This document shows, piece by piece, positions 1 to 44,362 of a DNA stretch of 44,680 nucleotides; within the stretch, counting starts at the first letter, position 1; every line of letters starts with the position of its first letter. This stretch comes from Akkermansiaceae bacterium. Lineage in GTDB: Bacteria; Verrucomicrobiota; Verrucomicrobiia; Verrucomicrobiales; Akkermansiaceae. The notes under the pieces are model-generated. The model did no database searches. It was not told the DNA's origin and worked only from the letters and a program-made list of their open reading frames with translations. The DNA lies in NCBI GenBank assembly GCA_029253285.1, contig JAQWZU010000080.1, forward strand, positions 1-44,680, written 5' to 3'. A program made the position numbers and the translations under genes.

Positions 1-153
1 AATTTACCGAATTCCTGTCAATGACGCCGTTTTTTCCGACCATTTTCAGCAAAAAGCAAATTTTCCAGTCAATTTTTTGTGCTTTAGTTCTTTATTTCTA
101 CAAAGGGTTTTATTTACTGAGTGTTTCCGCAACAAATCGCGCTCATGTTTTCT

Positions 154-21130: not shown

Positions 21131-21172
21131 TTCCTATTGTGTCTGACAGACCGTCCTTTTTGTCTCGTATCA

Positions 21173-24100
21173 ATGAGGATGCCATCGAATCTTCCTCCTG
21201 AAATCACCTCCGGCCTGAGAACTATCAGGCGTCGGATTAGGCGAATTCAACTTGGTAGGGGCCTTTTGCGGGTCCTTTCCGTTGTTTTGGGCGGTCTCTT
21301 TATTCTGGTTGCCATGGATTATTTTTTGGCTCCCTTGTCTTCCGGCGTTCGCGCAGTGGCTTTCTTTTGTTGGTTGGCCGCCGCCGCATACGGAGTTTTC
21401 CGCTTTTTACTCAGGCCTTTGACCCGAAAAATCTCGTTGGTCCGATTGGCCCGTTGGCTTGAGGAACGCCATCCGGAAGTACAGGAGCGCATCAGTACCG
21501 CCCTGGAGCTGTCGGATTATCCCGAAGGAATCTCTCCGGACCTTCTTCGCGAACTTTCAAAGGATGCAGCCAAGGATGTTGGTGAGTTGAATCCCAACGA
21601 CGAAGTGCGCTCGGAGCGGGTCAAGAAATCCCTCTGGCCGGCTGCGGTCATGGTTGTGGCATTAATCTCGCTTTTGGTGATTTGGCCTCGGGAAATGGGA
21701 CGTCTTCTTTCACGGGCGGTGTCACCATTTTCTGATCTCGGAAACGTCGGCGCATTCCGCTTCACCATGAATCCAGGGGATTTGGAAGTTCTCGAAGGTG
21801 ACGAAGTGTTGATCGAAATGACCTATGAAGGAGAACTTAATGGCGATCTTGATTTTTTGGTGACCAAGGATGGGGAGGTGTTATCCGAGTCGCTGAGCCC
21901 GGTTTCAAGCGAAGGAAACAAGCATACCTTCCAATATCATTTGCCTTCGGCCGAAGATGGCTTCTTTTATTCAGCCAGAATTGGTAGGAGTGAAAGTGAT
22001 CAATTTGAAGTGAGGGTCTGGCCGATTCCTCTCCTGCGGGATGGCGTCGTTCGCTACCAATATCCGGAATATACTGGTTGGTCCGATCGATCCGAGGCTC
22101 TCAATGGCGGGATTAAGGCTCTTCCGGGAACACAGGTGACTGTTACCGGGACTTTCGACTCTCCGATCAAAAGCGGACAACTCCTTTTTGAAACCAAGGA
22201 GCTTGGCGATGTAGAGGTCGAGAACTCGGCCAATGGATCCAGCTTTCGCTGGACTCAAACAATTGTTCCGGAAACTCTGGGGAATGCGACTTTGATGGTG
22301 ACTCATAAATTGGGTCGTGAGTTGCAAGGAGGTAGTTTTTCGATTGAGTCGCTGATTGATGAAGCGCCTGCCGTGAAAATTCTAAGTCCGTTTCAACGGG
22401 AATTGAAAATCCGGCCGGATGATCAAATTGTTTTAAATTACGAAGTGCTCGAGAAGATTGGCCTCAGCAAAGCGGAGATTGAAATTGAAGTTGGAGGGAA
22501 GAAACTGGAGTCGTTAAACGAACTTCTTCCTGAGAAAAAGCCCGACCTACGCCCGAATCTTTGGGAGGGGGAAGCGATGATTTATTTGGGAAACCTTCTC
22601 CCTGAAATCAAGAACCCGCGTGAATTTAAGATTCGCCTCGCCATTAGCGATAACCGCCCGGCGGATTTGGAGGGGCCGGGAGTGGGATACTCCGAATGGA
22701 TCGAAATCAAGATTAACAAAGGGGCGTCTTCATTAGTGAGACAGGAATTGCACGAGAAGCATTCAGACCTCAAGAAGACCATCGAAAAGGCAATTGCTGA
22801 TGTCCATAAGGCAAAGGCCAAGATGCATCAGGCCAAAGCCCGACTAAGAAAGGAAGAGGTCCCCGAACAGGCTCTTGAAGCCATGAATGAAGCTCGCGAC
22901 AAGCTTGCTGAGGTTGAAGAAGATCTCACCGATCTTTCCGAGCGAATGAAGGACAGTGTCCAGGCCCATCGGCGGGATGAGTTGGAAGAAACGATTGATA
23001 AGCTTGCTGAGGCTCGCAAGGAAGTGGAGAGAGCTCCGCTGCAAGATACCGACGAATCCCGTAAAGAGGAGATTGATAGCGCGATAAGGAATTCCACAGA
23101 AGCAGTTGACGAACTCAGAGAGCTCTTGAATGAAGTGAACAAGGATCATCCGAAAATTGAAGACCTTGCCAAGCTTGAGGAGCTTGCTCAAAAACAAGAT
23201 CAATTGGCTCAAGAAGCTTCGGAAGCTGCCGAAAACGCGGAGAATGCCGACACTCCCCCGGAGCAGGATTGGCAGAAGCAACAAGAGCAGGTTGAGAACG
23301 AAATCAGGGAACAGGTTCGTCAGTCACCCGAAGCCAAATCTGCGGCTTTGGAAAATCAGGCCGAGAAAGCTCAGGATCTTGCCGAGAAGGCTGAAGACCT
23401 CAAAGAAGCGCAGGAAAATCTGGCGGAGTTGGCCTCGCAGGATCAGCCGACGACGGAGGAAAAAATTGCCGATGCATTAGCGCAAGCGCAGGAACAAATT
23501 AATCAGGACATCAAAGAGGAGTTGGCAGAAGCCCAGGGTAACGAAGAAGCCCAGGGCAACGAAGAGGCTCAAGGCAACGAAGAGGCTCAAGGCAACGAAG
23601 AGGCCCAAGGCAACGAGGAGGCCCAAGGCAACGAAGAGGCCCAAGGCAACGAAGAGGCCCAAGGTAATGAAGAGGCCCAGGGCAACGAAGAAGCCGAGGG
23701 TAACGAAGAAGCCCAGGGTAACGAAGAAACCCAGGGTAACGAAGAAGCCAAGGGCGATGATGAATCTCGAGCTGAAAATCTGTCGGAAGCACTCGCTCAG
23801 GGTGAAGAGGCCCTGGAAGGCGCAAAGAGTGATGAGTTTCAAGAGGCGGCCGAGGCCGCTCAAAATGCAGCTGAGGAATTAGCGCAGGGTGCGGAAGAAT
23901 CGCCCAGTCAGCAAAACCTTCAGGAGAGACAAGAAAAGGTTGCCGAAGCATTTGAAGCCCTGGCCGAAGGAAATACCGAAGAAGCGAGGGCGGCTTTGGA
24001 GGAGGCCCAGGAAAGCGCTCTTTCCGACGCGCTTGCGGAAGCCTTGGCCAAGGAGCAGGAGGCTATTGTCGAAGATGTGAAGGAAGAGTTGAGCGATGCC

Positions 24101-25090
24101 CGCAGCAATAGCGAGCCCCGTGCCAATGATCTCCCCGAAGCGGTGGCTCAGGCTGAAGCCGCTCTGGAAAGTGCGCAGGAGAATCAAGCTGCCGATGCTG
24201 CTGAAGCAGCCAATCAGGCATCCGAGGAATTGGCAAAGGGCGCCAGTGAATCAGCCAGCCAACAAGAATTGCAGGAACGTCAGGAACAAGTCGCGGAAGC
24301 ACTGGAAGCTCTTGCAGAAGGAGATACCGGGGAGGCTTTGGCAGCCCTCGAAGAAATGCAGGCGGACCGTGCGGCTGATCTCGCCCAGGAGGTGCAGGAC
24401 TTTGCGCAAGTCGATAGCGATCAATTGGCAAATGCCCGCAGTCAGACCCGACAAGCCTCAAGCCGCGCCGAACAAGCGGCGCAAGCAAATGAAGCCGGGA
24501 ATTCCCAACAGGCCTCACAGCAGAATCAGCAAGCCTCCGAACACCTGGAGCAAGCTGAGAATGCTCTCAATCAGGCTGCGGAAGACTTTGCCCAGCAAGC
24601 CGAGCAGGCTGCCCAACAAGAGCTGAGTGATCGCAAGGCTCCTGCACCCGGCGAACCATTGGCGGAGGCTTTCGAACAAAGTGCCGAGGCTGCCCAAGCC
24701 GGCGATGCCCAACAAGCCGCTGAAAGCGCCCAGGCTGCGGCTGAAGCCCTTGCGCAGGCTGCCCAGCAAGCTCGGTCGGCAATGTCCTCAAATGGTCAGC
24801 CCGGTCAGCCCGGTCAGCCGATGGATGCTCAGGCTGAAAAAGGGAAAGGAAAAGGGAAAGGAGAGCCGGGTGAGGGTGAAAGTGATGATCCCCAGGAAGG
24901 AGATCGTCAGGCGCAGGGTGATAAAGGCATCCCGCCGCACCTGGCAAAACTCGGAATCACGACCAAAGACTGGGAGAAGATTCGTGCAACTTTGAAGACT
25001 GACGTCAGTGGGGCCGCCGGGGAGGTTGTTCCGGAAGACTATCGCGGTCTCGTGAAGCAATATTTTGAACAAGTATCCAAAGAGCAATAA
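21173..25090 (+). CDS. Giant membrane-anchored coiled-coil protein, DUF4175-like
   Basis: Predicted inner-membrane protein of 1305 residues with most of its mass outside the membrane. Two helices lie near the N-terminus (LSVVLGGLFILVAMDYFL and AVAFFCWLAAAAYGVFRFLL), and a third at about 155-175 (AAVMVVALISLLVIW). A beta-rich segment (about 200-500) resembles DUF4175-type proteins of Planctomycetes and Verrucomicrobia. From about 530 to 1220 it is Glu/Ala/Gln-rich coiled coil, with an AQGNEE tandem repeat (about 787-864) and an 81-residue duplication. A Gly/Pro/Lys-rich linker leads to a C-terminal domain (WEKIRATLKTDVSG, VPEDYRGLVKQYFEQVS) common in the family. Start: ATG 21173 or 21179; the frame is open to a TTG at 21137. 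Function is unknown. Its stop shares one base with the next start (TAATG). Confidence 0.85.
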   Translation: MRMPSNLPPEITSGLRTIRRRIRRIQLGRGLLRVLSVVLGGLFILVAMDYFLAPLSSGVRAVAFFCWLAAAAYGVFRFLLRPLTRKISLVRLARWLEERHPEVQERISTALELSDYPEGISPDLLRELSKDAAKDVGELNPNDEVRSERVKKSLWPAAVMVVALISLLVIWPREMGRLLSRAVSPFSDLGNVGAFRFTMNPGDLEVLEGDEVLIEMTYEGELNGDLDFLVTKDGEVLSESLSPVSSEGNKHTFQYHLPSAEDGFFYSARIGRSESDQFEVRVWPIPLLRDGVVRYQYPEYTGWSDRSEALNGGIKALPGTQVTVTGTFDSPIKSGQLLFETKELGDVEVENSANGSSFRWTQTIVPETLGNATLMVTHKLGRELQGGSFSIESLIDEAPAVKILSPFQRELKIRPDDQIVLNYEVLEKIGLSKAEIEIEVGGKKLESLNELLPEKKPDLRPNLWEGEAMIYLGNLLPEIKNPREFKIRLAISDNRPADLEGPGVGYSEWIEIKINKGASSLVRQELHEKHSDLKKTIEKAIADVHKAKAKMHQAKARLRKEEVPEQALEAMNEARDKLAEVEEDLTDLSERMKDSVQAHRRDELEETIDKLAEARKEVERAPLQDTDESRKEEIDSAIRNSTEAVDELRELLNEVNKDHPKIEDLAKLEELAQKQDQLAQEASEAAENAENADTPPEQDWQKQQEQVENEIREQVRQSPEAKSAALENQAEKAQDLAEKAEDLKEAQENLAELASQDQPTTEEKIADALAQAQEQINQDIKEELAEAQGNEEAQGNEEAQGNEEAQGNEEAQGNEEAQGNEEAQGNEEAQGNEEAQGNEEAEGNEEAQGNEETQGNEEAKGDDESRAENLSEALAQGEEALEGAKSDEFQEAAEAAQNAAEELAQGAEESPSQQNLQERQEKVAEAFEALAEGNTEEARAALEEAQESALSDALAEALAKEQEAIVEDVKEELSDARSNSEPRANDLPEAVAQAEAALESAQENQAADAAEAANQASEELAKGASESASQQELQERQEQVAEALEALAEGDTGEALAALEEMQADRAADLAQEVQDFAQVDSDQLANARSQTRQASSRAEQAAQANEAGNSQQASQQNQQASEHLEQAENALNQAAEDFAQQAEQAAQQELSDRKAPAPGEPLAEAFEQSAEAAQAGDAQQAAESAQAAAEALAQAAQQARSAMSSNGQPGQPGQPMDAQAEKGKGKGKGEPGEGESDDPQEGDRQAQGDKGIPPHLAKLGITTKDWEKIRATLKTDVSGAAGEVVPEDYRGLVKQYFEQVSKEQ
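23531..23764 (+). repeat. 18-bp in-frame tandem repeat encoding AQGNEE
   Basis: Twelve consecutive 18-bp units with consensus GCCCAAGGCAACGAAGAG (23531-23746) plus a degenerate thirteenth unit (23747-23764, AKGDDE). Units differ mostly at third codon positions; two carry amino-acid changes (AEGNEE, TQGNEE). The internal units are nearly identical, the pattern of recent slippage expansion. The length is a multiple of three, so copy-number change keeps the frame. Confidence 0.97.
23774..24367 (+). repeat. Two 81-residue protein repeats in the coiled-coil region
   Basis: Copy A (23774-24016, from ENLSEALAQGEEALEG) and copy B (24125-24367, from NDLPEAVAQAEAALES) align over 81 residues without gaps, about 52 identical by hand count, offset by 351 bp. 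The best-conserved core is SQQxLQERQExVAEAxEALA. The segment before copy B (DVKEELSDARSNSEPRAN) matches the one before copy A (DIKEELAEAQGN), with the 18-bp array inserted in the latter, so the full repeat unit is about 117 residues. Confidence 0.85.
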
Positions 25091-29035: not shown

Positions 29036-31606
29036 TTAGGATTCCTCTTCTTTGTTCTTAGCTGCCTTTTTGGTGGCTTTCTTGGCAGCCTTCTTTGCTC
29101 TCGGGGCGAACTCGAAGCCGATTTTGGCGGTTTCGGGGTCGAGGGTGAGGTGGGCGGCGAAGGCGCGTTTGGTCTTCTTGGAAATGAAGCCGGGAAGGAG
29201 CGTGGTCTTGCCTTCGACGAGCAATTTTTCGACGTCGGCTGCGGTAAGCTCTTTTTGAAGGATCGTTTTGCCGAGGCGGAAGCCGTCGGGGTTTTCCTTG
29301 GTGGTGAGCGCGGGAACCATGAAGGCTTTTTCCGTTTCGTAGAGTTTGGCCGACTTGCCGTTGGTGAGGGTGACCTCTTTGATCATCTGATCTTCAGTGA
29401 GGTCCTCGACGGATTCGAGGTCGGAGTCGAAGACGAAGTTGGTTTTCCACTTGCCGAGCTTGCCGGTTTTGGAAACTTGTTGCTTGAGTTCGAGGGCTGC
29501 TTCGAAAGGTCGATTGAAGCGGGAAACGAAACCGTCGCGGGTTTCGAGGAATTTTGTGGTGAAGAGCGTCTTGGCTTCTTCTTCGCTGATTGCGCGACCG
29601 GCGATGTATTTGGAAATTCTGAATCCGCAATCTGGAGTGCGGCATTCGTAAGTGGCGTCGGTTTGTTTGAGCTCGGTGGCACCGCAGTTGGGGCAGGTGC
29701 ACTTGAGGTCTGGGAAAGGACGCGAGATGATTTCGTCGTAGTGCGCGCGGGCCTTGCCGACGGCGTCTTCGGTGAAGCGCGCGATCTCACTCATGAAGGT
29801 GGCTCGGTCGAGTTCGCCTTGTTCCATCTTTCGGAGCTTGGCTTCCCAGTCTCCGGTCATGGAGGGAGAAGTGAGCGGCTTGATGTCCATTTCCTGGAGG
29901 AGATCAATGAGGCGCACGCCCTTGCCGGTGGCGATGAGCTCGCGGCCGTCACGGGTGATGTATTTCTGGCGAATGAGACCTTCGATGGTCGCAGCGCGGG
30001 TGGCGGGGGTGCCGAGTCCGCGTTCGGACATTGCTTCGCGGAGCTCGTCGTCGTCGATGAGCTTTCCGGCTCCTTCCATCGCGGAGAGGAGAGTCGATTC
30101 GGTGTAGCGGGCGGGAGGATTGGTTTCCTTTTCCTCCATCGTGATCTCGATGGCTTTGGCGTCTTCGCCTTCCTGGACGGCGCAGAGCTCGTCTTTGCCA
30201 GCGGCGACGCCGGGCTTGCGACCGTAGACAGAGAGCCAGCCGGGAGCGATGAGAATTTTACCGTCGGTGCGGAAGGTATCCTTTTCGGCACCGTGATCGA
30301 TGGTGGTGAGGCGCTTGGTGACCTCGAACTCGGCATGCGGGAAGAAGACGGCGAGGAAGCGCTTAACGATCATGTCGTAGAGCTTGGAAACGGGCTCGTC
30401 AATTCTGACAACGCGGCCGGTCGGGATGATCGCGAAGTGATCGGAGACCTTCGCATTATTAAAGATACGCTTTTGAAATTGCAGGCGGTCGTTGTCGAGG
30501 GCGTCCTGGGCCCAGTTGGCGAGATCGGAAGTGGAACCGGCGAGCTCGGTCACGATTTCCTTTACGTTGGGCATGTAGTCCTCGGGAAGGTAACGCGAAT
30601 CGGTTCGCGGATAGGTGATCATCTTGTGCCGCTCATAAAGAGTCTGGGCGAGCCCGAGGGTATTCTTGGCTGTGAAGGGAGCCTCCCGCTGGAGGGTGGT
30701 GAGGTCGTAAAGCTGGGGCGCGATTTGCCTCGTGGGCTTTTTGTCTTCGGTGACGATGCCGCTCTTGCCCTGGCAACGCTCGGTGATGACACGGGCACGT
30801 TCTTTATCCCAGATGCGCTCGGCGCGACCGTGGGGATTTGTTTCGTCCTTTTTAAAGTCGAGGTCGACCCACTTGCCGTCGTATTCGCCGGCGTCGACAC
30901 CAAAGAGTCCGTGGACTTCGGCATAAGGAGTTGCGGTGAAAGCGGCGATTTCCTTTTCGCGCTTCGCAAGGATAGCAAGGGTCGGAGTTTGGACGCGTCC
31001 GGCGGCCGTGATATTGAAGCCACCGTGGCGGGAGCGGAAACAGGTCAGAGCGCGGGTGGAATTGAGGCCGACGAGCCAGTCGGATTCGGAGCGGCACTTA
31101 GCGGCGTCGGAAAGGTCGGACATTTCCTGGCCGTCGCGGAGTTTGTCCCAGGCTTGCTGGATCGCGCCGGTGGTCATGGATTGCATCCAGAGGCGTTTGA
31201 CGGGCTTCTCGATCTTCCCGTAGTCCATGATGTATTGGAAGATGAGTTCTCCCTCGCGGCCGGCATCACAGGCATTCACGATTTCGGTGACGTCCTTGAG
31301 CTTGGCGAGTTTGAGGACGTGGCGGAGGCGTCCTTCGGACTGTTCGATGGGCTGGAGGGCGAAATTGCTGGGGATGGCCGGGAGGACGTCGAATTTCCAC
31401 GGAAGGTTCTTTCCGTTGGGGCCGGTGGGCATTTTGAGCTCGATAAGATGACCGACCGCGGAGGTGATCATCGCCTGATCGTTCTCGAAATACTGGGCAT
31501 CACGGGACTTTCCCTTTTTGGTAAACTTGCCGAGTTTTTTAGAGAGGGCTTTGGAGAGATCTGTAGCAACAGAGGGCTTCTCAGCGATGATCAGAGTCTT
31601 GGACAC
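29036..31606 (-). CDS. topB: DNA topoisomerase III (type IA)
   Basis: Type IA topoisomerase of 856 residues that passes single strands and decatenates recombination or replication intermediates. Motifs: Toprim start [18 protein letters not shown], acidic motif [24 protein letters not shown], and catalytic Tyr332 in [17 protein letters not shown]. The order and wording of the motifs fit TopB rather than TopA. The C-terminus carries a zinc-finger-like C4 unit ([23 protein letters not shown]), topoisomerase C-terminal repeat segments ([17 protein letters not shown]) and a basic Ala/Lys tail. The start is GTG ([10 protein letters not shown]). It lies 290 bp downstream of dprA on the same strand and converges on ftsK. 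A long open frame on the opposite strand is a codon-bias shadow. Confidence 0.95.
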
Positions 31607-31896: not shown

Positions 31897-33003
31897 TTAT
31901 TTCTTCTTGTAGCGTTGGCCGGGGAGGGTGAGGACGAGGTTTCTTAGTTCGAGCTTCATCAGGATGACGGAGATTTGATGAGATGGGAGGGAGGTGGCGG
32001 CGACCAGCTCGTCGATGAGGCGCTCGTCGTGACCGAGGGCTTTAAGGACGGCGTTTTCTTCCTCGGTGAGGTCGAGGTGGGTTTCGATGGGGCCGGGTTC
32101 GTTTTCGACGGTGAGGGAGAGGTCGAAGTTGAGGTGGCTGAAGTCGTCGAGGATTTGGGAACCGTCAGTGACGAGGGTGGCTCCGTCGCGGATGAGGTCG
32201 TGGCAGCCGCCGGAGGTGGGACGGTCGATGGGGCCCGGGACGGCGTAGACGTGGCGCCCGGCCTCGGATGCGAGATTTGCGGTGATGAGGGAGCCGGAGC
32301 GGCTGGGACATTCGACAACGAGGATGGCGCGGGACCAGTGGGCCACGATGCGGTTACGTTGCGGGAAAGTTTGTTTGTCGGGCGAAGTTTGGAGTGGGAA
32401 TTCGGAAATGATGGCCCCGTGTCCGTCGGCGATCTTCTCGGCGAGGGCGAGGTTTTCAGGCGGGTAGAGTTGCATCAAACCGGAGCCGAGAACGCCGATG
32501 GTGCGACCTTTGGCGGCGACGGCTCCCTCGTGTGCAGCGGTGTCGATTCCGCGGGCAAGGCCGGAAATAACGGTAAGTCCGGCTCCGGCGAGTTGGTAAG
32601 CGAACTTGCGCGCGGTCTCGCGCCCGTAGTGGGTGAGCTTGCGGGAGCCGACGATGCCGATGGAATGAATGTCGCGTTCTTCGAGTTTGCCCCAAACGTA
32701 GAGAATGACGGGGGCGTCGTATGAATCGCGGAGGGCCGCGGGATAGTCGGAATCTTGCTGGGTGAGGATGGTGATGTTGCGTTCTTTGGCGAGAGAGATC
32801 TCGGCGGCGGGGTCGGTGTGGTTTTCCCAGTCCGCAATGAGCTTGGCGGATTCAGGTCCGATGCCCTGCACTTGCTGGAGAGCGGTGTCGGCGGCGCGGA
32901 GGACTTTGGTGGCGGAGCCGAAGGTTTCGATCAGGCGTTTGATTTTAACCGGTCCGGTTTGCGGCAGTTGGTTGAGGGCGATGAGTGCTTCGGCTTCAGT
33001 CAT
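31897..33003 (-). CDS. dprA: DNA-processing protein DprA
   Basis: Protects incoming single-stranded DNA and loads RecA during natural transformation. The product is 368 residues, typical for the family. Features: an N-terminal SAM/HhH-like domain (LNQLPQTGPVKIKRLIETFG, VQGIGPESAKLIADW), the Rossmann DprA core (IGIVGSRKLTHYGRETARKF, VISGLARGIDTAAHEGA, GVLGSGLMQLYPPEN, ISEFPLQTSPDKQTFPQRNR, VVECPSRSGSLITANLA, VYAVPGP), and a C-terminal winged helix (DERLIDELVAATSLPSHQIS). It is the last gene of a four-gene minus-strand unit and overlaps the DUF2851 gene by 8 bp. No other competence gene is in the window apart from the possibly related GspE/GspF pair. Confidence 0.96.
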   Translation of the reverse strand: MTEAEALIALNQLPQTGPVKIKRLIETFGSATKVLRAADTALQQVQGIGPESAKLIADWENHTDPAAEISLAKERNITILTQQDSDYPAALRDSYDAPVILYVWGKLEERDIHSIGIVGSRKLTHYGRETARKFAYQLAGAGLTVISGLARGIDTAAHEGAVAAKGRTIGVLGSGLMQLYPPENLALAEKIADGHGAIISEFPLQTSPDKQTFPQRNRIVAHWSRAILVVECPSRSGSLITANLASEAGRHVYAVPGPIDRPTSGGCHDLIRDGATLVTDGSQILDDFSHLNFDLSLTVENEPGPIETHLDLTEEENAVLKALGHDERLIDELVAATSLPSHQISVILMKLELRNLVLTLPGQRYKKK

Positions 33004-34363
33004 GGGTCCAGGTGGAGAGTTGTTCGGGAAAAGGACAGTCGGAGCAGTCGCTGAGATCTTCGAGACAAAAGTCCTGGTATATTTGCAGGAGGGCTTGGTG
33101 TTGCCAGGCGAATTTAAGGTGTGGTTTGGCGAGGGTGAGTGAGCCGAAGAGGCGCTCGGAGCAGCGTTTTACTTTTTGATTGGGAGCATCGGCGCGGACT
33201 TTGGCGTAGGCGTCCCAATGTTCGATGTTGAGTGGGTAGAGCGTGTTGATGAGAAACTCGGTGAGGCGGGATTTTCCGACGAGCTTAACGGTGCTCTCGG
33301 TTTGCGCGGATTTGAGAGTGTGGTGGCGGTCCCAGAAGGGATCGTTGAGGTTACTCATTGCGGAGGTAAATTTGGTAAAAGGCGGGTCCTGCTTGGCGAG
33401 GGTGCTGAGTGACCTCCATTGCGCGGCCGCAGTGGCGAGAGCAGCGACGCGGCGGTGCGGGTGATTTCCGGGCCGGGTCGCGCGAGTGCTCCAGCCGGGG
33501 GTGCGGTTTTCGGGAAATTCGAATTGGTCGCGGCGCTTCCACCAACGAGTCCAGAGATCTTCGAGCCATTCCTGGGATTCGGGCGGGGCGGTTTCGTGGA
33601 GGGTGGGAGAAAGAAATCCGGCGGTGCCAAAAATGATGGCTTCGCGGTCTTCGGGCGAGAAAGTGTTGAGTTTTTTGGCGGGAAGGCGCTGCGCGAGGAG
33701 GCGCATGGGAAGGCGGTTGGCGGAGAAGCCCATGGCAGCAGCGAAGGATTCCCAGAGGGCTTGCGAAAAGCCATGGAGTGACGAGGTTTGTTTGAAGCGG
33801 TGGGCTTTTTGTTGGGCGCGATAGATGGCGGCTTCCTTGAGGAGAGAGGTGATGTTTTCTTCGGAAAGTTGCGCGAGGGGATTAAGGCAGCGGCCGGGTC
33901 GGGCGAGGGCCTGAGTGAGACGCGGAAGGCCGAGGGCGGTGTTGACTTCATTGGGCGCGAGAACGATGCGGGGGACGTCGCGGTCGTTACTGGTGCGGGT
34001 GAAGAAGGTGGGGCCGGATTCGGTGAGGACGATGTGGAGAATGACGTCGTCGAAGAATGGACTCTCACGATGGCCGTGGAGTTCCCAGCTGCGGGAATCG
34101 AGATCGAGTTCGATGGGGCCGGAGTGCATTTCACCATCGATCTCGACGGAGGCGGCGAGGAAATCGGGACCGGCACCGCGATTCCATTCGCCGGGAGAGA
34201 TAATGCGGATTTTTTGGCCGTGGCTGGCGGTGTGCTCACAGGAGAAATGCCCGGCAAACCAATGGGATTGGATTTCGATTTCGTCGAAATTTGGTCGCGC
34301 CAAATTCTCTGCCACCAGATTGGTGGCTGGGGCGCAATCATTGAGAAGCTGCGCGTAGGTCAT
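32996..34363 (-). CDS. DUF2851 family protein (possible PD-(D/E)XK nuclease-like)
   Basis: Cytosolic protein of 455 residues of the DUF2851 family, for which I know no assigned function. The best-conserved block is residues 57-111: PGEWNRGAGPDFLAAS, then GPIELDLDSRSWELHGH and DDVILHIVL. The spacing PD66-67 ... E85-x-D87 resembles the PD-(D/E)XK nuclease active site with a variant last residue (inference). The C-terminus has three closely spaced cysteines, C433-x6-C440-x2-C443, and there are Cys at 10 and 42; a metal or Fe-S site is conceivable. The gene overlaps dprA by 8 bp and its start overlaps the TIGR03790 stop by 4 bp (ATGA on the minus strand), so the products are made together. Confidence 0.85.
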   Translation of the reverse strand: MTYAQLLNDCAPATNLVAENLARPNFDEIEIQSHWFAGHFSCEHTASHGQKIRIISPGEWNRGAGPDFLAASVEIDGEMHSGPIELDLDSRSWELHGHRESPFFDDVILHIVLTESGPTFFTRTSNDRDVPRIVLAPNEVNTALGLPRLTQALARPGRCLNPLAQLSEENITSLLKEAAIYRAQQKAHRFKQTSSLHGFSQALWESFAAAMGFSANRLPMRLLAQRLPAKKLNTFSPEDREAIIFGTAGFLSPTLHETAPPESQEWLEDLWTRWWKRRDQFEFPENRTPGWSTRATRPGNHPHRRVAALATAAAQWRSLSTLAKQDPPFTKFTSAMSNLNDPFWDRHHTLKSAQTESTVKLVGKSRLTEFLINTLYPLNIEHWDAYAKVRADAPNQKVKRCSERLFGSLTLAKPHLKFAWQHQALLQIYQDFCLEDLSDCSDCPFPEQLSTWTHD

Positions 34364-35904
34364 TTCTTTTTGGCAGGCGGCGGAGCAGGGGGATCCAGAA
34401 TTGTAATGAGGCCATCGACTGATTTAACTTCGGGGAGGTCTTCATAGGTAGCCTTGGCTTTCTTGAGAATAATGAGTGCTTCGCCGTGTTTCTTCTGGCG
34501 GCGGTTAAGCTCGACAAGATTGAGGTCCTGCCGGAGTTTATCAGCGGGGTTTTGGTAGAGGCTTCTGGCTTTGATGAATGAATCGGTGGCGGCTTCCCAA
34601 TTTTCTTCTTCGAGTTCTTGCGTGCCGAAGTGTTCCTGAATGATGCCGCTTTTAAACTTTTTGGACGCTTGGGTGAGATTGGCCCGACGTTCTTTTGCAT
34701 CCGCCCATCGATTCTGGGCCAGGCGGATGGCTTTGAAGTCACGATCTTCTTTGAAGTCGGAGAGGGTTTCGTTGAACTTTTTGTAGGGACGATAAAGTGG
34801 GTCGCCGATAACGACACTTTGCCAGGAGATGACATTCATCGCCATGTAGGCTGACTCGATGAGAGAGTATCCTTTGAGAAGTCGGTCGTGAAAAATGCTA
34901 AAGTCGTGACTGGCCTGGAGGTAGGGTTCCCAGACGTTGCCGAGAGTGGCGGCGGCTCCCCGGTCGATGAGTGCGGCGCTCCAGTTCTGGGCGGGATTGT
35001 TGAGTTGTTTGGCGCTGAAGGAGTGAAGGTGAACGGCGATGGCGCCAGGCTTGAGTTTCATCTTGGGGTCGAGGAAGGGGCCGTTGCGATGCTGGGTATA
35101 CCAGCCGAAGTAGAGGGCGGCATCGGTCATGGGATAGTGGCTGGTGAAGGTGTTTTTTTGTCGGTCGACGACGGTTGGAATGCCGACTTCGAGGTTTTTT
35201 GTGACGATGGTGCTCATCCATTGATCGCCGATGGCAAAGCCTCCACCTTTGAGTGCGTGGTCGATATAGGCCCGACCCCAGAGTCCTTTTTCTTCAATTT
35301 CCAGTGAATCAAGAACCATGCGCTTGCAGTGATCCTGCGTGGGGCCGTCGAGGCGACCGACGAGATAGATGAGGTCGAGGTTGGATTGGATGAAAGGGAG
35401 ATCCTTTTTGAAAAACGGATTGGGGATGAGGCCAGCGATGGGATAGGGATCGACACCGAATAGGGCGAGCTCTGAATCAATCGAGGCTTCGGTGTTCTTG
35501 CCAAATTGTTTTACTTTGGCGAGTTCTTCGGCGCTTGCTTCACTTCGGCTGATGCGAAGAGGCATGCCCCGCATGAGGACGATGCTGCGGATGTGGCTTT
35601 GAGAAGGAATAGTTGTGCCACTTACGTCTTTGGAAAGAGTCCACCATTTGGATTCGGTGAACTTTTGGCGGAGGGGATCGCGGATCGTTTTATTGTAAGT
35701 GGCGCGGTCGATGGTGGCCTTCTCGGTGGTGGAAACTCCGACGATCTGCGTGGTCGGGATTTTCCGCATCAGCGAATAGAACTCGGCCAACTCTTTGGAA
35801 TCTTCCGAGTTGCTGTTGTAGACGACAAGGATGTGTCCGGGTTGGAGCGGTGCCGGGGCGGCGAGGACCGGAACGATCAGGGCAAGAAAAAGGAGGATTC
35901 GCAT
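34360..35904 (-). CDS. TIGR03790 family exported protein
   Basis: Predicted exported protein of 514 residues. It has a short signal peptide (MRILLFLALIVPVLAAPAPL) and the landmarks of the TIGR03790 family: HILVVYNSNSEDSKELAEFY, SIVLMRGMPLRIS, YLVGRLDGPT, GAIAVHLHSFSAKQL, RGAAATLGNVWEPY and SWQSVVIGDPLYRPY. The order of these resembles the caspase/gingipain-type region of large extracellular proteases, with H in HLHSF and a GDP motif, but a catalytic Cys is not evident to me. The family occurs in Planctomycetes, Verrucomicrobia and Acidobacteria and has no known function. The C-terminal 120 residues are helical and TPR-like (EALIILKKAKATYEDLPE). It shares one base with the MBL stop and four with the DUF2851 start. 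Confidence 0.87.
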   Translation of the reverse strand: MRILLFLALIVPVLAAPAPLQPGHILVVYNSNSEDSKELAEFYSLMRKIPTTQIVGVSTTEKATIDRATYNKTIRDPLRQKFTESKWWTLSKDVSGTTIPSQSHIRSIVLMRGMPLRISRSEASAEELAKVKQFGKNTEASIDSELALFGVDPYPIAGLIPNPFFKKDLPFIQSNLDLIYLVGRLDGPTQDHCKRMVLDSLEIEEKGLWGRAYIDHALKGGGFAIGDQWMSTIVTKNLEVGIPTVVDRQKNTFTSHYPMTDAALYFGWYTQHRNGPFLDPKMKLKPGAIAVHLHSFSAKQLNNPAQNWSAALIDRGAAATLGNVWEPYLQASHDFSIFHDRLLKGYSLIESAYMAMNVISWQSVVIGDPLYRPYKKFNETLSDFKEDRDFKAIRLAQNRWADAKERRANLTQASKKFKSGIIQEHFGTQELEEENWEAATDSFIKARSLYQNPADKLRQDLNLVELNRRQKKHGEALIILKKAKATYEDLPEVKSVDGLITILDPPAPPPAKKK

Positions 35905-36704
35905 TATTTGAGAAGATTAAGGCTGAGGCGGTCGTACGCCAGCGAAACATTCGGTGAGAGAGAGGCGGAGACTTCCTCGCGGTTGATTTCGTGGGAGAGA
36001 TGAGTGAAGTGGGATTGCCGGGGTTTGAGCTCCTCGATGGTGGCGAGGGCTTCGTGGATAGTCATGTGGGTGTGATGATCTTCGTGGCGAAGGGCGTCGA
36101 TGATGAGGATGTCAAGGTCCTGAAGGAGGGCGAGAGACTCGGGTGGGATCGTTTTAACGTCGGGGAGGTAGGCCAGGGAAAGGTGATCGGGGAAATCGAA
36201 GCGAAAGCCGTGGGTACGAACCCAGCCGTGTTTAACCTCGATCGGGGTGATTTTGAGGCCGTTGAATTCGAAGGCTTCTTCGAAAGGGCGTGGGTCGGGG
36301 TGGACGTAGCCACCTTGTTTGCCTTTGTTGAGAAAGGCCCAGGGGAACATGCGGTCGAGGCCGCCAAGGGTTTCGGGAGATCCGTAGAGCGGGAGGGGAT
36401 CGTCGCGATGCCAGCAGAAGGCGCGGATTTCATCGAAGCCCGCGACGTGATCGACGTGCTCGTGGGTGTAGAGGACGGCGTCGACGGCGGTGATATTCTC
36501 GCGGAGCGCTTGTTCGTGAAGGTCGGGGCCGGTGTCGATGAGGAGACGCCCCCAAGGGCCTTCGATCAAGGCGGAGCTGCGGAGACGGCGGTCATGGGGG
36601 TGATCCGAGGCGCAAGTCGGGCAGGGACAGCCGATGACCGGCACGCCGACGGAGGTGGCGGTGCCGAGAAAAAGGAAGCGGCTTTGATCCGAACACGTGC
36701 TCAT
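35904..36704 (-). CDS. MBL-fold metal-dependent hydrolase (PhnP-like)
   Basis: Metallo-beta-lactamase-fold hydrolase of 266 residues. The N-terminus has the PhnP-type signature (FLFLGTATSVGVPVIGCPCP with a further C, then RLRSSALI), and the metal site THEHVDHVAGFDEI, with D and H further on (YLPDVKTIP, DALRHEDHHTHMT, HFTHLSHEIN). Relatives include phosphoribosyl 1,2-cyclic phosphate phosphodiesterase and tRNA-processing or cyclic-nucleotide hydrolases; the substrate here is not known and no phn genes are near. Start: ATG 36704 matches the family start; the frame is open to 36773, but that region probably holds the recN promoter. It is the first gene of the MBL-TIGR03790-DUF2851-dprA unit. Confidence 0.87.
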   Translation of the reverse strand: MSTCSDQSRFLFLGTATSVGVPVIGCPCPTCASDHPHDRRLRSSALIEGPWGRLLIDTGPDLHEQALRENITAVDAVLYTHEHVDHVAGFDEIRAFCWHRDDPLPLYGSPETLGGLDRMFPWAFLNKGKQGGYVHPDPRPFEEAFEFNGLKITPIEVKHGWVRTHGFRFDFPDHLSLAYLPDVKTIPPESLALLQDLDILIIDALRHEDHHTHMTIHEALATIEELKPRQSHFTHLSHEINREEVSASLSPNVSLAYDRLSLNLLK

Positions 36705-36706
36705 GG

Positions 36707-36734
36707 TTGCAACTGGGCGAAAGCCTTGCATAAT
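36707..36734 (+). promoter_or_regulatory. Candidate sigma70-type promoter for recN
   Basis: TTGCAA (36707-36712) and CATAAT (36729-36734) are separated by 16 bp, four of six and five of six matches to the consensus. Transcription would start near 36741, about 15 bp before the recN ATG at 36757. The element sits in the 52-bp gap between the divergent MBL and recN starts. I see no LexA-type box. Confidence 0.4.
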
Positions 36735-36756
36735 CGCCTCCTCATCGCAAAACGGA

Positions 36757-38397
36757 ATGCTCACTCTTCTCAAGATTCGTAACCTCGCCCTCGTCGATCA
36801 ACTGGAATGGGAACTCGGAAGTGGATTGGTCGGGGTGACCGGGGAGACTGGTGCGGGCAAGTCGGTGATCGTAGGTGCGCTCAAACTGGTATTGGGAGAG
36901 CGGGCCGATAAAGGGTTGATTCGCACTGGTGAAGAGCAATGTAAGGTCGAGGCGATTTTTAATTTGTCCGATTCAAGTGCCATCGATGCCATTCTCGAGG
37001 AAGTCGGGCTCGATCCTTGCGATGAAAACGAGCTGATCATTCGGCGCGTGGTGGGTACGAGTTCGAACAAGCAGTTTGTGAATAACGGAGCGGCGACCCT
37101 GGGTGTGTTGCGGAAAATTGGGCAACACCTGGTGGATCTTCACGGGCCGCACGATCACCAGTCCTTGCTTTCGGCAGAGCGGCAGCTGGCGATGTTGGAT
37201 GCCTACAGCGGAGCGGTAAAAGATTTGGCGGGTTACCGTGAGCAGTGGGCGAGTTGGCGGCAAGCTGCGGATGATTACGAAACGGCGCGAGCCCAGCGCG
37301 AGATTGGTGATCAGGAAAAAGAGCTTTTGAGATTTCAGGTGGAGGAAATTGACTCGGCTGAATTGAAGCCGGGCGAAGAGGAGGAGTTGGAAGAGCGTTA
37401 TCGTCGCACGAGTAATGCGAGTCGTCTTGGTGAGTTGGCCGGGAAGGCGGTGCAGTTGCTGTCGACAACGGTGAATTCAGGACTTGAGGAACTACAGCGC
37501 ACTGTGGTGGAGCTTTCATCGATTGATCCGGCGATCAAAGACCTCTCCGATGAAGTGGAAGGCGCAAATATTCAGATGCAGGAATTGGAGCGTGGACTCG
37601 CGGATTATCTCGGTGAGTTGGAATTGGATCCGGAAGAAGTGCGCGAAGTAGAGGGTCGCTTTAATTTAGTAGAGAACCTGAAGCGGAAATACGGACCCGG
37701 CTTGGAGGATGTCATCGAGCATGCAGAGGAAGCCCGGCAACGACTAGCTGGCTCGGATAACCGGGAAGAATATCTCAAGGGCCTGAAAGAGTGTGTGGAT
37801 GGCGCGATGAAGACCCTTCGATCCAGAGCTCGCAAGATGAGCACGAAGCGTAAGAAGCATGCCACAGCTTTGGCGGATGAAGTGAGATCTCATCTCGTTG
37901 ATTTGGGGTTCAAGCAAGCTGAGTTTGAAGTGCAGCTGGAAGTCCGGGAAGAACCGGGACCGTATGGTCTTGAGAATGTCGAATATCTCTTCGGTCCGAA
38001 TCCGGGAGAGCCGCTCAAGCCGCTCCGGCAGGTCGCTTCGAGCGGGGAGATTTCACGAGTGATGTTGGCGGTGAAAAATGCGCTGGCTGATCAGGATAGC
38101 ACGCCTTTGATGGTGTTTGATGAAATCGATGCCAATGTCGGCGGGGAAATTGCTCGGGCGGTGGGCGAAAAAATGGCGAGTTTGGGTGAGCGGCATCAAG
38201 TGGTGTCGATTACGCACTTTCCGCAGGTGGCAGCCGTGGCGCATCAGCATTTTCTGGTCGAGAAGCGAGTGGAGGGAGGTCGCTCGATTTCCTCACTCGT
38301 CGAAGTCGCCGGAGAAGAGCGAGTTGATGAGTTGGTTCGGATGCTCGGAGGCGGAGGAATCGAAGTCCGCGAGATGGCAAAGTCGCTTTTGAGTTAG
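36757..38397 (+). CDS. recN: DNA repair protein RecN
   Basis: SMC-like ATPase of 546 residues acting early in double-strand-break repair. Motifs: N-terminal MLTLLKIRNLALVDQLEWEL with Walker A GVTGETGAGKSVIVGAL, VNNGAATLGVLRKIGQHLVD, DLHGPHDHQSLL, long coiled-coil arms (about 140-360), and the C-terminal ABC half with signature SSGEISRVMLAVK and Walker B PLMVFDEIDANVGGEIA, then VVSITHFPQVAAVAHQHF. Start: ATG 36757 matches the family start; an upstream in-frame ATG at 36697 would overlap the divergent MBL gene. The stop (TAG 38395-38397) overlaps the acpH stop on the other strand. Confidence 0.95.
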   Translation: MLTLLKIRNLALVDQLEWELGSGLVGVTGETGAGKSVIVGALKLVLGERADKGLIRTGEEQCKVEAIFNLSDSSAIDAILEEVGLDPCDENELIIRRVVGTSSNKQFVNNGAATLGVLRKIGQHLVDLHGPHDHQSLLSAERQLAMLDAYSGAVKDLAGYREQWASWRQAADDYETARAQREIGDQEKELLRFQVEEIDSAELKPGEEEELEERYRRTSNASRLGELAGKAVQLLSTTVNSGLEELQRTVVELSSIDPAIKDLSDEVEGANIQMQELERGLADYLGELELDPEEVREVEGRFNLVENLKRKYGPGLEDVIEHAEEARQRLAGSDNREEYLKGLKECVDGAMKTLRSRARKMSTKRKKHATALADEVRSHLVDLGFKQAEFEVQLEVREEPGPYGLENVEYLFGPNPGEPLKPLRQVASSGEISRVMLAVKNALADQDSTPLMVFDEIDANVGGEIARAVGEKMASLGERHQVVSITHFPQVAAVAHQHFLVEKRVEGGRSISSLVEVAGEERVDELVRMLGGGGIEVREMAKSLLS

Positions 38398-39831: not shown

Positions 39832-42800
39832 GTGAATTTCCCTCACAAATTGCTTTTTCTTATTTTGGCGTCGCAGGCGTGTGCAAAATCGGCGCTCACC
39901 TTCAATAAGGACATTCGCCCGATTCTTTCGGATAAGTGTTTTGCTTGTCATGGTTTCGACGAAGAAACCAGGGAGGCCAAGCTGCGGCTCGATACTCCGG
40001 AGGGGGCATTTAAGAAAAAGAAGCGGGGAAAACCGGCGATTTTTCCCGGGAATCCGGATGAGAGTGAGTCGTGGCTGCGCATCATCTCCAAGGACGAGGA
40101 TGATGTCATGCCTCCGCCGGATTCGCACAAGCAGCTGACTTCGGAAGAGAAGGCGGTCATCCGTCAATGGATTTCCGAAGGAGCGGAGTATCAAAGACAC
40201 TGGGCTTTTGAGGCTCCGGTGAAGGGGAAGATTCCAGGGGGAGAAGGAACAGTGATTGACCGCTTCGTAGGGGCCGGTTTGGAAAAAGAAGGAGTGGGCT
40301 TTTCCCCGGAAGCGGATCGCGCGACTTTGATTCGGAGAGTGAGTTTTGCGCTAACCGGTTTGCCGCCTTCGATTGAGGAGGTGGAGACTTACCTCGACGA
40401 TCAAACGACTAATGCTTACGAGAAAATGGTCAAGCAATACCTCGCTTCAGATCGGTATGGTGAGGAAATGGCGCGCCATTGGTTGGATGCGGCGCGTTAT
40501 GGAGACACCCATGGGATGCACCTCGATAATGAGCGTCAGATGTGGGCTTACCGGGATTGGGTGATTGAATCGTTTAACAAGAACTTGCCCTACGATAAAT
40601 TTACGATTCAGCAACTAGCCGGTGACTTGATGCCGAATCCGACCCAGGAACAAATGGTGGCTACCGGGTTCAACCGTTGTAATGTCACTACCGGTGAAGG
40701 TGGTAGTATCGCGAAGGAGTTCGTCTTTCGTTACGCCGTTGATCGGGCAAGCACCACGGCGCAGGTTTGGTTGGGTCTGACAGCGGCCTGTGCGGTGTGT
40801 CATGATCACAAATACGATCCGATTACTTCCAAGGATTTCTATTCGCTTTATGCCTTTTTTAACTCCAATGCCGATCCGGCGATGGACGGAAACAAGTTGC
40901 TCACGCAGCCGGTGGTCAAAGTGAAGAGCCCGGACTACGATGAAAAGATGAAGGCGTTCTCGGAACGGGAGAGTGTTCTCGCGAAGAAGATGACCAAGAT
41001 CGCAAAATCGCTGGTTTATAAAGATCCGGCCGAGCAAAAACCACGTCCACCCAAGGCTGTGCAGGAACAGGTTTGGTTTGACGATGCCTTTCCCAAGGGT
41101 GCGAAGGTTGGGTCGTCAGGGCATCCTCTGACACTTGTAGATTTCCCGGTAAAGAGCGGAAAGAAATCGTTGAAGCGAGGTGGCCCGGCGATGGCGCAGG
41201 ATTACTATCAGGCGGGAGCCGCTCCTCTGGTTGTACCGGCGAATGCGAAGTTTTTCCTCAATGTTTATCTCGACCCAAAAGATCCGCCGGAAGAGGTTAT
41301 GATTCAGTTCCATACCAGTGGTTGGAGTCACCGTGCCTTGTGGGGGGCTGATGTGATTGACTTTGGCAATAGAGGAACCACGGAACGGTATCGGGCAGGA
41401 GACCTGCCAAAGAAAGGGGAGTGGGTTCGTCTTGAAGTCCCGGGTGAAAAGATGGGGCTTTCGAGTGGTGCCAAGGTCGTGGGCTTTGCTTTCACCGTGC
41501 ACGGCGGAACGGCTTACTTTGATCATTTCGGAGTTGAAGGCGTCACCGATCCGGCCTCAGACCCGAATCTTTCTTTAATGGCCTGGCGAAACTCACGGAA
41601 AGGTAAGGATACTCCGGAAGCGAAAGGTAAACTAAGGGGATGGTTGAAGGCTGGTCCCGAGAAAGCCCGCAAGCCCGGGGAGTTAGCGCAGATTAGGTCA
41701 TATTACCTTGAGAATATCTGCCACTCGACACGTGATGCCTTCACCTCGGTTGATGGAGATTTGGAAAAGATTCGTAAAGAAAAAGCGGCCTTCGATGCGA
41801 GTATTCCATCGACCTTTGTCTTCAAGGATCTCGCAAAGCCCCGCGAAAGCTTCGTGATGATACGCGGGGAATACGACAAGCCCGGTGAGAAGGTGGAGCC
41901 GAATACTCCACTGGTTCTTCCTCCGCTAAAGAAAGACGGAGCGCGGGCTAATCGTCTCGACTTGGCAAATTGGTTGGTGGCTCCTGAGAATCCACTCACA
42001 GCCCGCGTGGCGGTGAATCGTTTTTGGCAGCAGGTCTTTGGCGTTGGTTTGGTTAAGACGAGTCACGATTTTGGAACGCAGGGAGAATTGCCCAGTCATC
42101 CTGAATTACTTGATTACCTCGCGTTGCGCTTTCAGGAAAAAGGATGGGATGTCAAAGCCCTGATGCAGGAGTTGGTGATGAGTAGGACCTTCCGTCAGCA
42201 AAGCCGTGCGGCCAGTCCGCGATGGGTGCAGGATCCGACCAATCGAAAACTGGCCCGTGGTCCGAGGATTCGTCTCGCTGCGGAGCAGTTGCGTGATCAG
42301 GCGCTCTTTGTGGGCGGATTGATTGATCTAAAAATGGGAGGTAAAGGCGTAAGGCCCTACCAGCCTCCGAACATCTGGGAGCCGGTGGCTTTCGGGGGAT
42401 CGAATACGAGATATTACAAACAAGGGAAGGGCTCTGATCTCTATCGGCGTTCGGTTTACACCTTTTTCAAACGAACCGCACCGCATCCAGCAATGACGAA
42501 CTTCGACGCTCCGGCGCGCGAGCAAACCTGCTTGAGTCGTGAGACTAGTAATACGCCATTGCAGGCCTTGCAGCTTTTGAATGATGTGCAGCATTACGAG
42601 GCGGCGCGAGGGTTGGCAACACGAATGATGAAAGCTTCGCCGGAGCCAGCGGCGAGGATTGATTTTGCCTTCAAAAGCGTTTTGTCTCGCGCGCCTTCTT
42701 CGGATGAGGTGGCAATCATTTCCAAGCTCTGTCAACGACAGTTGGCCCGGTATCAAAAAACTCCCGAGGATGCCAAAAAGGCCATCGGTTTTGGTGAATC

Positions 42801-42897
42801 GAAAGCTCCGGCTGACTTGGATGTTCCGCAACTGGCGGCATGGACCTTGGTCGCAAATCTTATTCTTAACATGGACGAAGCTATCGTTCGCAACTAA
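39832..42897 (+). CDS. Planctomycete-type cytochrome c / DUF1549 / DUF1553 protein
   Basis: Exported protein of 1021 residues. A short signal peptide ends near ACAKS. The PSC1-type cytochrome c domain follows, with one heme motif C36-x2-C39-H40 ([10 protein letters not shown]) and the distal region [20 protein letters not shown]1549 (about 140-345) has [49 protein letters not shown] and [16 protein letters not shown]. After a carbohydrate-binding-like insert, DUF1553 (about 700-960) has [40 protein letters not shown], and [20 protein letters not shown]. The family is greatly expanded in Planctomycetes and Verrucomicrobia and is usually paired with DUF1501; roles in polysaccharide or sulfated-glycan degradation are suspected but not proven. 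The start is GTG. Confidence 0.92.
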
Positions 42898-42904
42898 TTA
42901 CCTT

Positions 42905-44362
42905 GTGAATCCATTTTTAGAAAATCAGCTTCTTCAAACCCGTCGTCAGTTTTTTGGCGACACCGGAATTAGGTTGGGCGGAATTGCCATGGCTTCCTTG
43001 ATGGGGGCTCCGCGAATCAGTGCCGCGCCATCCGAGGTGCATCCGGCTTTGCCTGACTTGCCGCATTTTGCAAGTAAGGCGAAGGCGGTGATTTACCTCC
43101 ACATGAATGGTGGTCCGTCGCAGCTCGATACCTGGGATTACAAGCCGAACCTACTTAAAGAATATCAGAAGAGCCTTCCCAAGGAGTTTCTTGGAGATCG
43201 GATTACCACGATGACCAGTGGTCAGGCGAAGTTTCCGGTAGCGCCTTCACGATTCAAATTTTCCCAGCACGGGGAATGTGGGCGTTGGGTGAGTGAGTTA
43301 CTTCCGCATACCGCTAAGATCGTGGACGACATCGCAGTGGTGAAAACGGTGCATACCAATGCAATCAACCACGACCCGGCCTGTACCTTCGTCATGACCG
43401 GAAGCGAAGTGCCGGGCAAGCCGAGCATGGGATCGTGGATTTCTTATGGTCTGGGGGCTGAAACGAGCGATCTTCCGGCTTTTGTTGCGTTGACGCCAAA
43501 CTTCCCGAATGGCTCGAATGCGCAGGCTCTCTTTAGTCGGATGTGGGGACCGGGGTTTCTGCCCGGACGTCATAGTGGTGTGGTTTTGCGATCAGGAAAT
43601 GATCCGGTGCTTTATCTGGAGAACCCTCCGGGAGTTAATCGGGATGACCGCCGGGCGATGCTCGATTCTCTGGGCGAACTTAATCAACGCGGCTTTGAGA
43701 AATTTGGTGACCCGGATATTCAGACGAGAATTTCCCAATATGAAATGTCCTATCGGATGCAAGCGAGTGTCCCTGAATTGACAAATTTTAAGAAGGAGTC
43801 GAAAGCGACATTGGATTTATACGGCGAAGATGTTCATCGGGCGGGATCGTTTACTTCAAGTGCGCTTCTGGCCCGACGACTTGTCGAACGTGGCGTGCGC
43901 ATGGTGCAGATTATGCATCGAGGCTGGGACTCGCACGGGAATCTTCCCAAGGAGATGGGGAGTCAGTGTAAGGATACAGATCAAGCGTGTGCAGCTCTCC
44001 TCACCGACCTTAAGCAACGCGGAATGTTGGATGAAACGCTCATTATTTGGGGGGGAGAATTTGGCCGGACGGTATACTCTCAGGGGACACTCACCGAGAC
44101 TCGCTACGGAAGGGATCACCATCCACGGAATTTCTGTATGTGGATGGCGGGCGGAGGAATCAAGGGTGGCGTCACACTCGGTGAAACCGATGAGTACTCC
44201 TATAACCCGGTGAGGGACTCTGTGCACATCAACGAGATCAACGCGACTGTGATGCATTGTCTCGGGATCGACCACGAACGCTTTACCCTGAAATATCAAG
44301 GCTTGGATCAACGTCTTACCGGAGTTGAACCGATGAAGGTTCTCAAGAATATCCTGGCCTAA
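42905..44362 (+). CDS. DUF1501 family protein with Tat-type signal
   Basis: Exported protein of 485 residues, partner of the preceding DUF1549/1553 gene (7 bp apart). The N-terminus has a twin-arginine motif ([20 protein letters not shown]), expected to be exported folded. DUF1501 landmarks: [110 protein letters not shown] and [17 protein letters not shown]. The fold is related to alkaline phosphatase/sulfatase; activity is not established. The start is GTG 42905. Upstream extension in the same frame overlaps the previous gene and is not coding. Confidence 0.93.

Follow-up and report, generated by a model that had tools for sequence, protein, structure and literature searches.

The described systems closest to the protein family treated here are, on the nuclease side, EndoMS/NucS, whose Tko representative has D165, E179 and K181 as catalytic residues (accessible part of PMC7343888), and, on the side of DNA glycosylases, Endonuclease III (EndoIII) and MutY, for which the cysteine motif C-X6-C-X2-C-X5-C has been published (accessible part of PMC11138216). 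In MUTYH, the loop between the cluster cysteines touches the DNA backbone (accessible part of PMC12000561). Here we analyzed a stretch of 44,680 nucleotides (nt) from an Akkermansiaceae bacterium (contig JAQWZU010000080.1 of assembly GCA_029253285.1, positions 1 to 44,680 of the forward strand; the window, for short), which encodes a protein of 455 amino acids (aa) belonging to the family DUF2851. This family is widespread, being found in most sampled Bacteroidota and Verrucomicrobiota, and we found no described function for it. We propose, with a probability of roughly 0.55, that DUF2851 is a two-domain DNA enzyme, consisting of a predicted PD-(D/E)XK-type nuclease core (N-domain) and a predicted non-catalytic iron-sulphur (Fe-S) domain resembling EndoIII and other HhH-GPD glycosylases (C-domain), and that it probably plays a role in DNA repair or recombination.

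An earlier note on this DNA had assigned the open reading frame (ORF) to DUF2851, and its Pfam match to PF11013 agrees (192.8 bits, E-value 1.2e-56; the curated cut-off is 25 bits). The motifs named in that note (GPDF at 65-68, E85-x-D87, HGH at 96-98, DDVILHIV, and cysteines 10, 42, 433, 440 and 443) are all in the translation. For conservation we used 161 distinct homologues, obtained from 184 proteins by removing duplicates (identical in residues 60-300) and proteins shorter than 360 aa; the truncated L213 had been taken out before this reduction, and two proteins with broken frames (L051 and L064) were left out of the 114-row homologue set. From the genome scan, which confirmed 558 relatives, the best 80 were retained. 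Five N-domain residues are invariant in all 161 homologues, namely P66, D67, E85, H96 and H98, and these include the PD and E on which the earlier nuclease proposal was built. H110, N61 and W93 are each conserved in 160 homologues, and E28 in 158, with gaps in the other three. Judged from the alignment, the pattern formed by P66, D67, E85, H96, H98 and H110 exceeds chance. D67 and E85 would be the metal ligands of the nuclease core.

The AlphaFold2 models were confident, both for the full window protein with 78 homologues (predicted local distance difference test (pLDDT) 88.6, predicted template modelling score (pTM) 0.71) and for the N-domain alone (pLDDT 90.3, pTM 0.84). The predicted N-domain consists of a helix (28-36), three strands (51-56, 68-75 and 78-89), a short helix (92-95) and a further strand (109-114), and in this model D67 ahead of one strand and E85-x-H/D in the next are placed as in the PD-(D/E)XK core, whose order of elements is alpha-beta-beta-beta-alpha-beta. 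When the N-domain was compared with known structures by VIA-align, EndoMS/NucS took the first and second ranks: 5gke_A (Z-score 5.4, root-mean-square deviation (rmsd) 5.0, 102 aa) and 5gkj_B (Z 5.0, rmsd 3.3, 94 aa). Further matches include Can1 (Z 3.9), SfsA (3.5), Bax1 (3.5), BsmI (3.4), AgeI (3.2) and BspD6I (3.1), and 26 of the 44 rows are, by our own assignment, PD-(D/E)XK nucleases (SfsA and 3dnx included). The fold claimed in the earlier note is thus probably right, as far as the model goes, since the model aligns best with such nucleases; the confident models and the VIA-align ranking favour the claim, whereas Foldseek gave no significant match.

Several results weigh against the nuclease reading of the N-domain. 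All VIA-align Z-scores are below 8, a range in which, according to the tool, a match may reflect no more than a common arrangement, especially where the model is helical. The best Foldseek matches of the full model and the N-domain against the PDB had E-values of 0.27 and 0.22, and against the viral library BFVD the best was 0.37. By hmmscan, 79 N-domains matched 14 families at E-values up to 10, none of them a PD-(D/E)XK, HhH-GPD or EndoIII-loop family, and hhalign gave the N-domain a probability of 0.3 against both Cas4 and PDDEXK_1 (a profile built for this comparison from at most 6 sequences). The second core helix is short in the AlphaFold2 model (92-95), Sm/Hfq barrels occupy many of the top Foldseek rows of the N-domain, and the motif lysine is absent: position 87, where PD-(D/E)XK proteins have it, is His in 138 homologues and Asp in 23. 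Replacement of this lysine is tolerated in known PD-(D/E)XK members, and in DUF2851 the His or Asp at 87 together with H96, H98 and H110 may stand in for it. Sequence searches of the PDB found nothing with the window protein up to an E-value of 10, and a 79-row profile gave two chance-like matches (E-values of 1.1 and 4.2) and no relative.

The N-domain might instead be a metal-dependent enzyme other than a nuclease and have a different fold, such as an SH3/Sm-like barrel that carries an Asp/Glu/His metal site, next to a C-domain that merely binds nucleic acid. Besides the missing lysine and the several invariant histidines, the Foldseek list, in which FeoA barrels are common as well as Sm and Hfq ones, speaks for this, as do the 18 VIA-align rows (out of 44) that lie outside PD-(D/E)XK; the best of these are ybgI (Z 3.5) and HcgD (Z 3.2), and the rows also include DUF1653 (Z 2.2) and VapX (Z 2.0). 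We consider this unlikely, since the remaining barrels reach at most Z 2.2 in VIA-align, compared with 5.4 for EndoMS and 3.1 to 3.9 for six more PD-(D/E)XK entries, and the Asp and Glu stand at the canonical PD-(D/E)XK places.

For the C-domain, VIA-align of the whole protein placed HhH-GPD glycosylases in 25 of the first 26 rows, with Z-scores of 4.2-6.9, which are below the trust level of the tool for helical models; this class assignment is partly our own, as for 1xg7, which we counted as a glycosylase although it is titled only a conserved hypothetical protein. The exception, at rank 9, is a queuine-salvage enzyme (DUF2419), and the row after the first 26 is Fanzor (Z 4.0). Examples from the list are the glycosylase AGOG (7olb; Z 6.8, rmsd 5.0, 201 aa) and EndoIII (2abk; Z 6.2, rmsd 5.0, 182 aa). 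Because residues 1 to 202 of 2abk span residues 164 to 453 of the model, the cysteine trio of DUF2851 (C433, C440 and C443) would lie near the cysteine loop of EndoIII itself. In VIA-align, EndoIII residue 1 is paired with a model position five residues beyond C159.

C159 and the trio occur together in 146 of the 161 homologues and are both missing in 11, and the remaining four have C159 without the trio by pattern; of these four, L159 ends early, L066 has C-x6-C-x-C, and L019 and L143 have just a cysteine near C159. Eight homologues whose cysteine set is incomplete were compared, and every one of them retains GPDF, E85, H96, H98 and H110; in some lineages, then, the cysteine site is dispensable, unlike the N-domain site. 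On a tree built without the cysteine columns (L159 left out for its early end, and L066 set by hand as trio-bearing), there are at least 5 changes in the trio and 7 in C159; where independent pairs differ with respect to the trio, C159 differs in the same direction in an average of 4.5 out of 5 and never in the opposite one. The earlier note had proposed a metal site of one N-terminal and three C-terminal cysteines. The arrangement of one upstream and three C-terminal cysteines holds, with C159 as the upstream one; C10 and C42, which the note had suggested, are ruled out as metal ligands because they are not conserved (Cys is absent from the five commonest states at either alignment column).

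The trio also resembles the cluster loop of EndoIII and MutY by profile. Using hhalign, residues 340-455 were aligned to a MutY+EndoIII profile over 22 columns across the trio (probability 51; E-value 1.5e-4 in a one-template search); the profile was made from MutY/EndoIII-type proteins of the same phylum that have the hairpin pattern and are shorter than 360 aa. In this alignment QALLQIYQDFC-x6-C-x2-CP of the window protein is paired with NSALMELGQTYC-x6-C-x2-CP of the genome's own MutY-type protein (L175). On gap-trimmed columns the loop scored 30.5, and the maxima of 120 decoys were 18.0 (60 decoys that kept the most conserved Cys columns) and 18.2 (60 full column shuffles). The published EndoIII/MutY motif is not complete in DUF2851, which has C-x6-C-x2-C without the last Cys and has a conserved C159 instead. 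C159 and C433-x6-C440-x2-C443 would hold the C-domain together through a four-cysteine cluster, most likely [4Fe-4S].

There are counterarguments for this half of the protein too. The loop match drops to a probability of 30 when the whole C-domain is the query, to 7 and 4 against an EndoIII-only profile (with the trio still aligned), and to between 0.4 and 4.3 in the global mode of hhalign. Residues 149-158, which adjoin C159, have pLDDT below 50 in the AlphaFold2 model, and a sign test on the joint loss of the cysteines gave p = 0.0625, the events being too few for significance. By hmmscan of 79 C-domains at E-values up to 10, no PD-(D/E)XK, HhH-GPD or EndoIII-loop family was among the 25 families listed out of 30; the whole window protein had no match to the Pfam HhH-GPD or EndoIII cluster-loop families either. 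Because the hidden Markov model (HMM) and PDB sequence searches gave no link, both the PD-(D/E)XK and the EndoIII assignments rest on the predicted fold, the placement of motifs and one profile match.

A zinc ion with a structural role alone, bound by the same four cysteines, would be equally compatible with them, in which case the likeness to the EndoIII loop would be convergent. The absent last Cys of the loop, the C-x4-C-x2-C spacing of the trio in a set of Bacteroidota homologues, the several lineages that keep the N-domain residues without the cysteine set, and the weak match to the EndoIII-only profile could all be read in this way. We find it rather doubtful, though somewhat less so than the other-fold alternative above, in view of the C-domain fold and the loop both matching the same protein family and of the loop alignment running past the cysteines. 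The earlier note had likened the cysteines to the Fe-S clamp of Cas4 and AddB nucleases, and a Cas4/AddB-type enzyme would indeed have a PD-(D/E)XK-like fold together with three C-terminal cysteines and a single upstream one; the nuclease domain of AddA (4cei_A, Z 2.2) is a weak match in VIA-align of the whole protein. We consider this analogy very improbable and do not uphold it: the upstream Cys comes after the nuclease core, with the trio 274 residues further on, beyond the helical domain; the Cas4 set has a spacing of C-x2-C-x5-C where DUF2851 has C-x6-C-x2-C; and hhalign probabilities to the Cas4 profile, the one clamp profile that was compared, are 0.2-0.3 for the N- and C-parts (0.3 for the C-terminal part, which has 0.9 to PDDEXK_1), as opposed to the 51 obtained with the MutY+EndoIII profile, and the HhH-GPD-like fold also favours the EndoIII/MutY side. 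The fusion predicted here, of a nuclease with an Fe-S module resembling EndoIII, is of greater interest than the Cas4/AddB proposal.

Glycosylase activity of the C-domain is disfavoured, as the catalytic residues are not conserved. The HhH-GPD catalytic Asp after the hairpin is not conserved in the C-domains of the 161 homologues; among residues 156-455, four columns reach 60% acidic residues, and the best single acidic residue is found in 103 of 161. Base excision is unlikely, since no catalytic Asp or Lys is conserved. Highly conserved C-terminal residues include R305 and N216 (160 homologues each), R297 (156), R182 (148) and K186 (Lys in 149, Arg in 12), and these near-invariant Arg, Lys and Asn residues would suit contact with DNA. 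A candidate helix-hairpin-helix at 361-377 (LVGKSRLTEFLINTLYP) resembles the EndoIII hairpin by eye; it remains a guess because its residues are partly conserved (G363 in 122 of 161, R366 in 80 of 161) and hhalign left the segment unaligned. In the two-domain enzyme that we propose, the C-domain probably holds on to DNA, which may be damaged, mismatched or branched at that site, and would present it to the N-domain nuclease. What the analysis shows is the conservation of the sequence, the joint occurrence of the cysteines, the predicted folds and the likeness of the cluster loop; the metal, the Fe-S cluster, the binding and cleavage of DNA and the role in repair or recombination are inferred. 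A bolder extension, which we put forward tentatively and with less confidence than the two-domain reading itself, is that DUF2851 founds a new class of DNA-repair nucleases. In these stand-alone incision enzymes, the EndoIII-type Fe-S module, itself non-catalytic, would find damaged, mismatched or branched DNA and deliver it to a PD-(D/E)XH nuclease on the same chain.

Of 288 Verrucomicrobiota genomes (the window's phylum), 225 have a DUF2851 match, mostly one per genome; matches were also found in 149 of 198 genomes around the Barnesiella centre (Bacteroidota) and in 44 of 59 around the Calditrichota centre, as well as in Thermomicrobium; among 14 control genomes, it was found in Bacteroides ihuae only. 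Genomes around the Bacteroidota centre include shorter DUF2851 proteins of 381-410 aa (L206-L212, L214, L215 and L217), whose Pfam match often ends near profile position 200 and which retain the four cysteines and the N-domain motifs. A defence role was rejected, with no PADLOC match at E-values up to 1 and none in NCBIfam. We also did not accept DUF2851 as a general phage or plasmid gene; the mobile-element records matched by tblastn were five from the plasmid collection, two of which are 0.9 and 1.8 Mb long, and two short unannotated phage-labelled contigs from human faeces.

The features of the DUF2851 gene and its neighbours in the window are listed in Table 1.

Table 1. Features of the DUF2851 locus and positions in the 44,680-nt window (residue numbers refer to the 455-aa protein; domain and site assignments are predictions).
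Feature	Position	Strand	Basis or remark
DUF2851 protein, 455 aa, ATG start, two predicted domains	32996..34363	-	ORF, Pfam, AlphaFold2
N-domain (19-155), predicted nuclease core of PD-(D/E)XK-like type	33899..34309	-	AlphaFold2, VIA-align
P66-D67, catalytic Asp candidate, directly ahead of strand 68-75	34163..34168	-	161/161 homologues
E85-x-D87, on strand 78-89	34103..34111	-	conservation in 161 homologues
H96-G-H98, invariant histidines	34070..34078	-	161/161 each
H110, in strand 109-114	34034..34036	-	160/161
C159, proposed fourth ligand of cysteine site	33887..33889	-	retained or lost along with trio
C-domain, residues 156-455, helical, predicted EndoIII/HhH-GPD-like	32999..33898	-	VIA-align, conservation
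C433-x6-C440-x2-C443, candidate EndoIII/MutY-type cluster loop without last Cys	33035..33067	-	hhalign to MutY/EndoIII profile
dprA	31897..33003	-	overlaps DUF2851 stop by 8 nt (32996-33003)
TIGR03790 family protein, upstream	34360..35904	-	overlaps DUF2851 start by 4 nt (34360-34363)
MBL-fold hydrolase	35904-36773	-	nearest models GPMC-system and PhnP-like, below their cut-offs
topB-type topoisomerase, downstream of dprA	29036-31606	-	
recN, divergent to operon	36697-38397	+	

The MBL-fold hydrolase, TIGR03790 protein, DUF2851 and dprA form a compact run followed by the topB-type topoisomerase, and the order of the first four genes is found again in L039, L146, L158 and L159. With recN divergent and the topoisomerase gene downstream of dprA, the region is rich in DNA-repair/recombination genes. 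The coupling to dprA mentioned in the earlier note is real in the window and confined elsewhere to some lineages. Across 144 loci, dprA is near DUF2851 in 13, and downstream on the same strand in 12; the latter arrangement was seen in 6 of the 10 loci fetched from the window's own family, in the Verrucomicrobiales locus L039, and in five Prevotella/Alloprevotella loci, where 465-650 bases separate the two genes. Outside the window's family, 50 loci of the phylum were fetched, and in none of them is dprA within about 5 kb. The neighbours vary widely and most of the 144 loci are without a nearby dprA, which again tells against the proposal; upstream of DUF2851 in Bacteroides and Parabacteroides lies dapB, on the opposite strand. 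As the largest neighbour cluster covers 17 of 144 loci, there is no constant neighbour. The linkage hints at DNA work, without carrying the case.

One could go further and see in DUF2851 a nuclease that works alongside DprA in DNA uptake or recombination, for instance by trimming or nicking incoming or branched DNA. The dprA gene directly downstream in the window, with its 8-nt overlap, and the same-strand dprA in the window-family and Prevotella/Alloprevotella loci would fit such a partnership; the linkage in 12 of 144 loci, in a family that is far more widespread, and the 0 of 50 among the phylum loci make it improbable.

Elsewhere in the window, a protein of 1785 aa (121-5478, +), probably surface-exposed, carries a passenger-associated-transport repeat and a cadherin-like domain, and a 1317-aa ORF (21137-25090, +) has no Pfam match at an E-value of 0.001. 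At 39832-44362 (+) a PSD1/PSCyt ORF is followed by an overlapping DUF1501 ORF, a pairing known from planctomycete-type genomes.

We did not find a function for DUF2851/PF11013 in the open-licence PMC literature, where the name DUF2851 was found in PMC3861447 alone, in the accessible part of which it is named in a table row for a gut clone with Akkermansia-like genes. The accession PF11013 matched three malaria papers, where, to judge by the titles, the string is a gene name. No fusion of a nuclease to an EndoIII-like Fe-S domain of this kind was found in the same literature, and none is described in the accessible part of PMC10140301. If our proposal is true, this conserved family of predicted nucleases carrying an Fe-S module would supply a missing piece of DNA repair in bacteria that are common in the gut and the environment. 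The proposal can be tested directly through the residues named above.

The predicted enzyme can be set beside three known systems. The C-terminal PD-(D/E)XK domain of EndoMS/NucS (5gke and 5gkj) is the top structural match of the DUF2851 N-domain (Z 5.4 and 5.0), and DUF2851 also has Asp and Glu at the catalytic positions; it differs from EndoMS in having His or Asp for the lysine, the nuclease domain first, an added helical domain of putative Fe-S type, and no HMM match. Cas4 and AddB share with DUF2851 the predicted nuclease fold class and one upstream plus three C-terminal cysteines, whereas the position of the first Cys, the spacing of the trio and the intervening helical domain are different, and there is no match to the Cas4 profile. 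Compared with Endonuclease III, MutY and AGOG, DUF2851 is without the nearly invariant Asp or the catalytic Lys, lacks the last loop Cys while conserving C159, and falls below Pfam HhH-GPD detection, but its C-domain shares with these glycosylases the predicted fold (Z 4.2-6.9) and the profile-aligned C-x6-C-x2-C loop.

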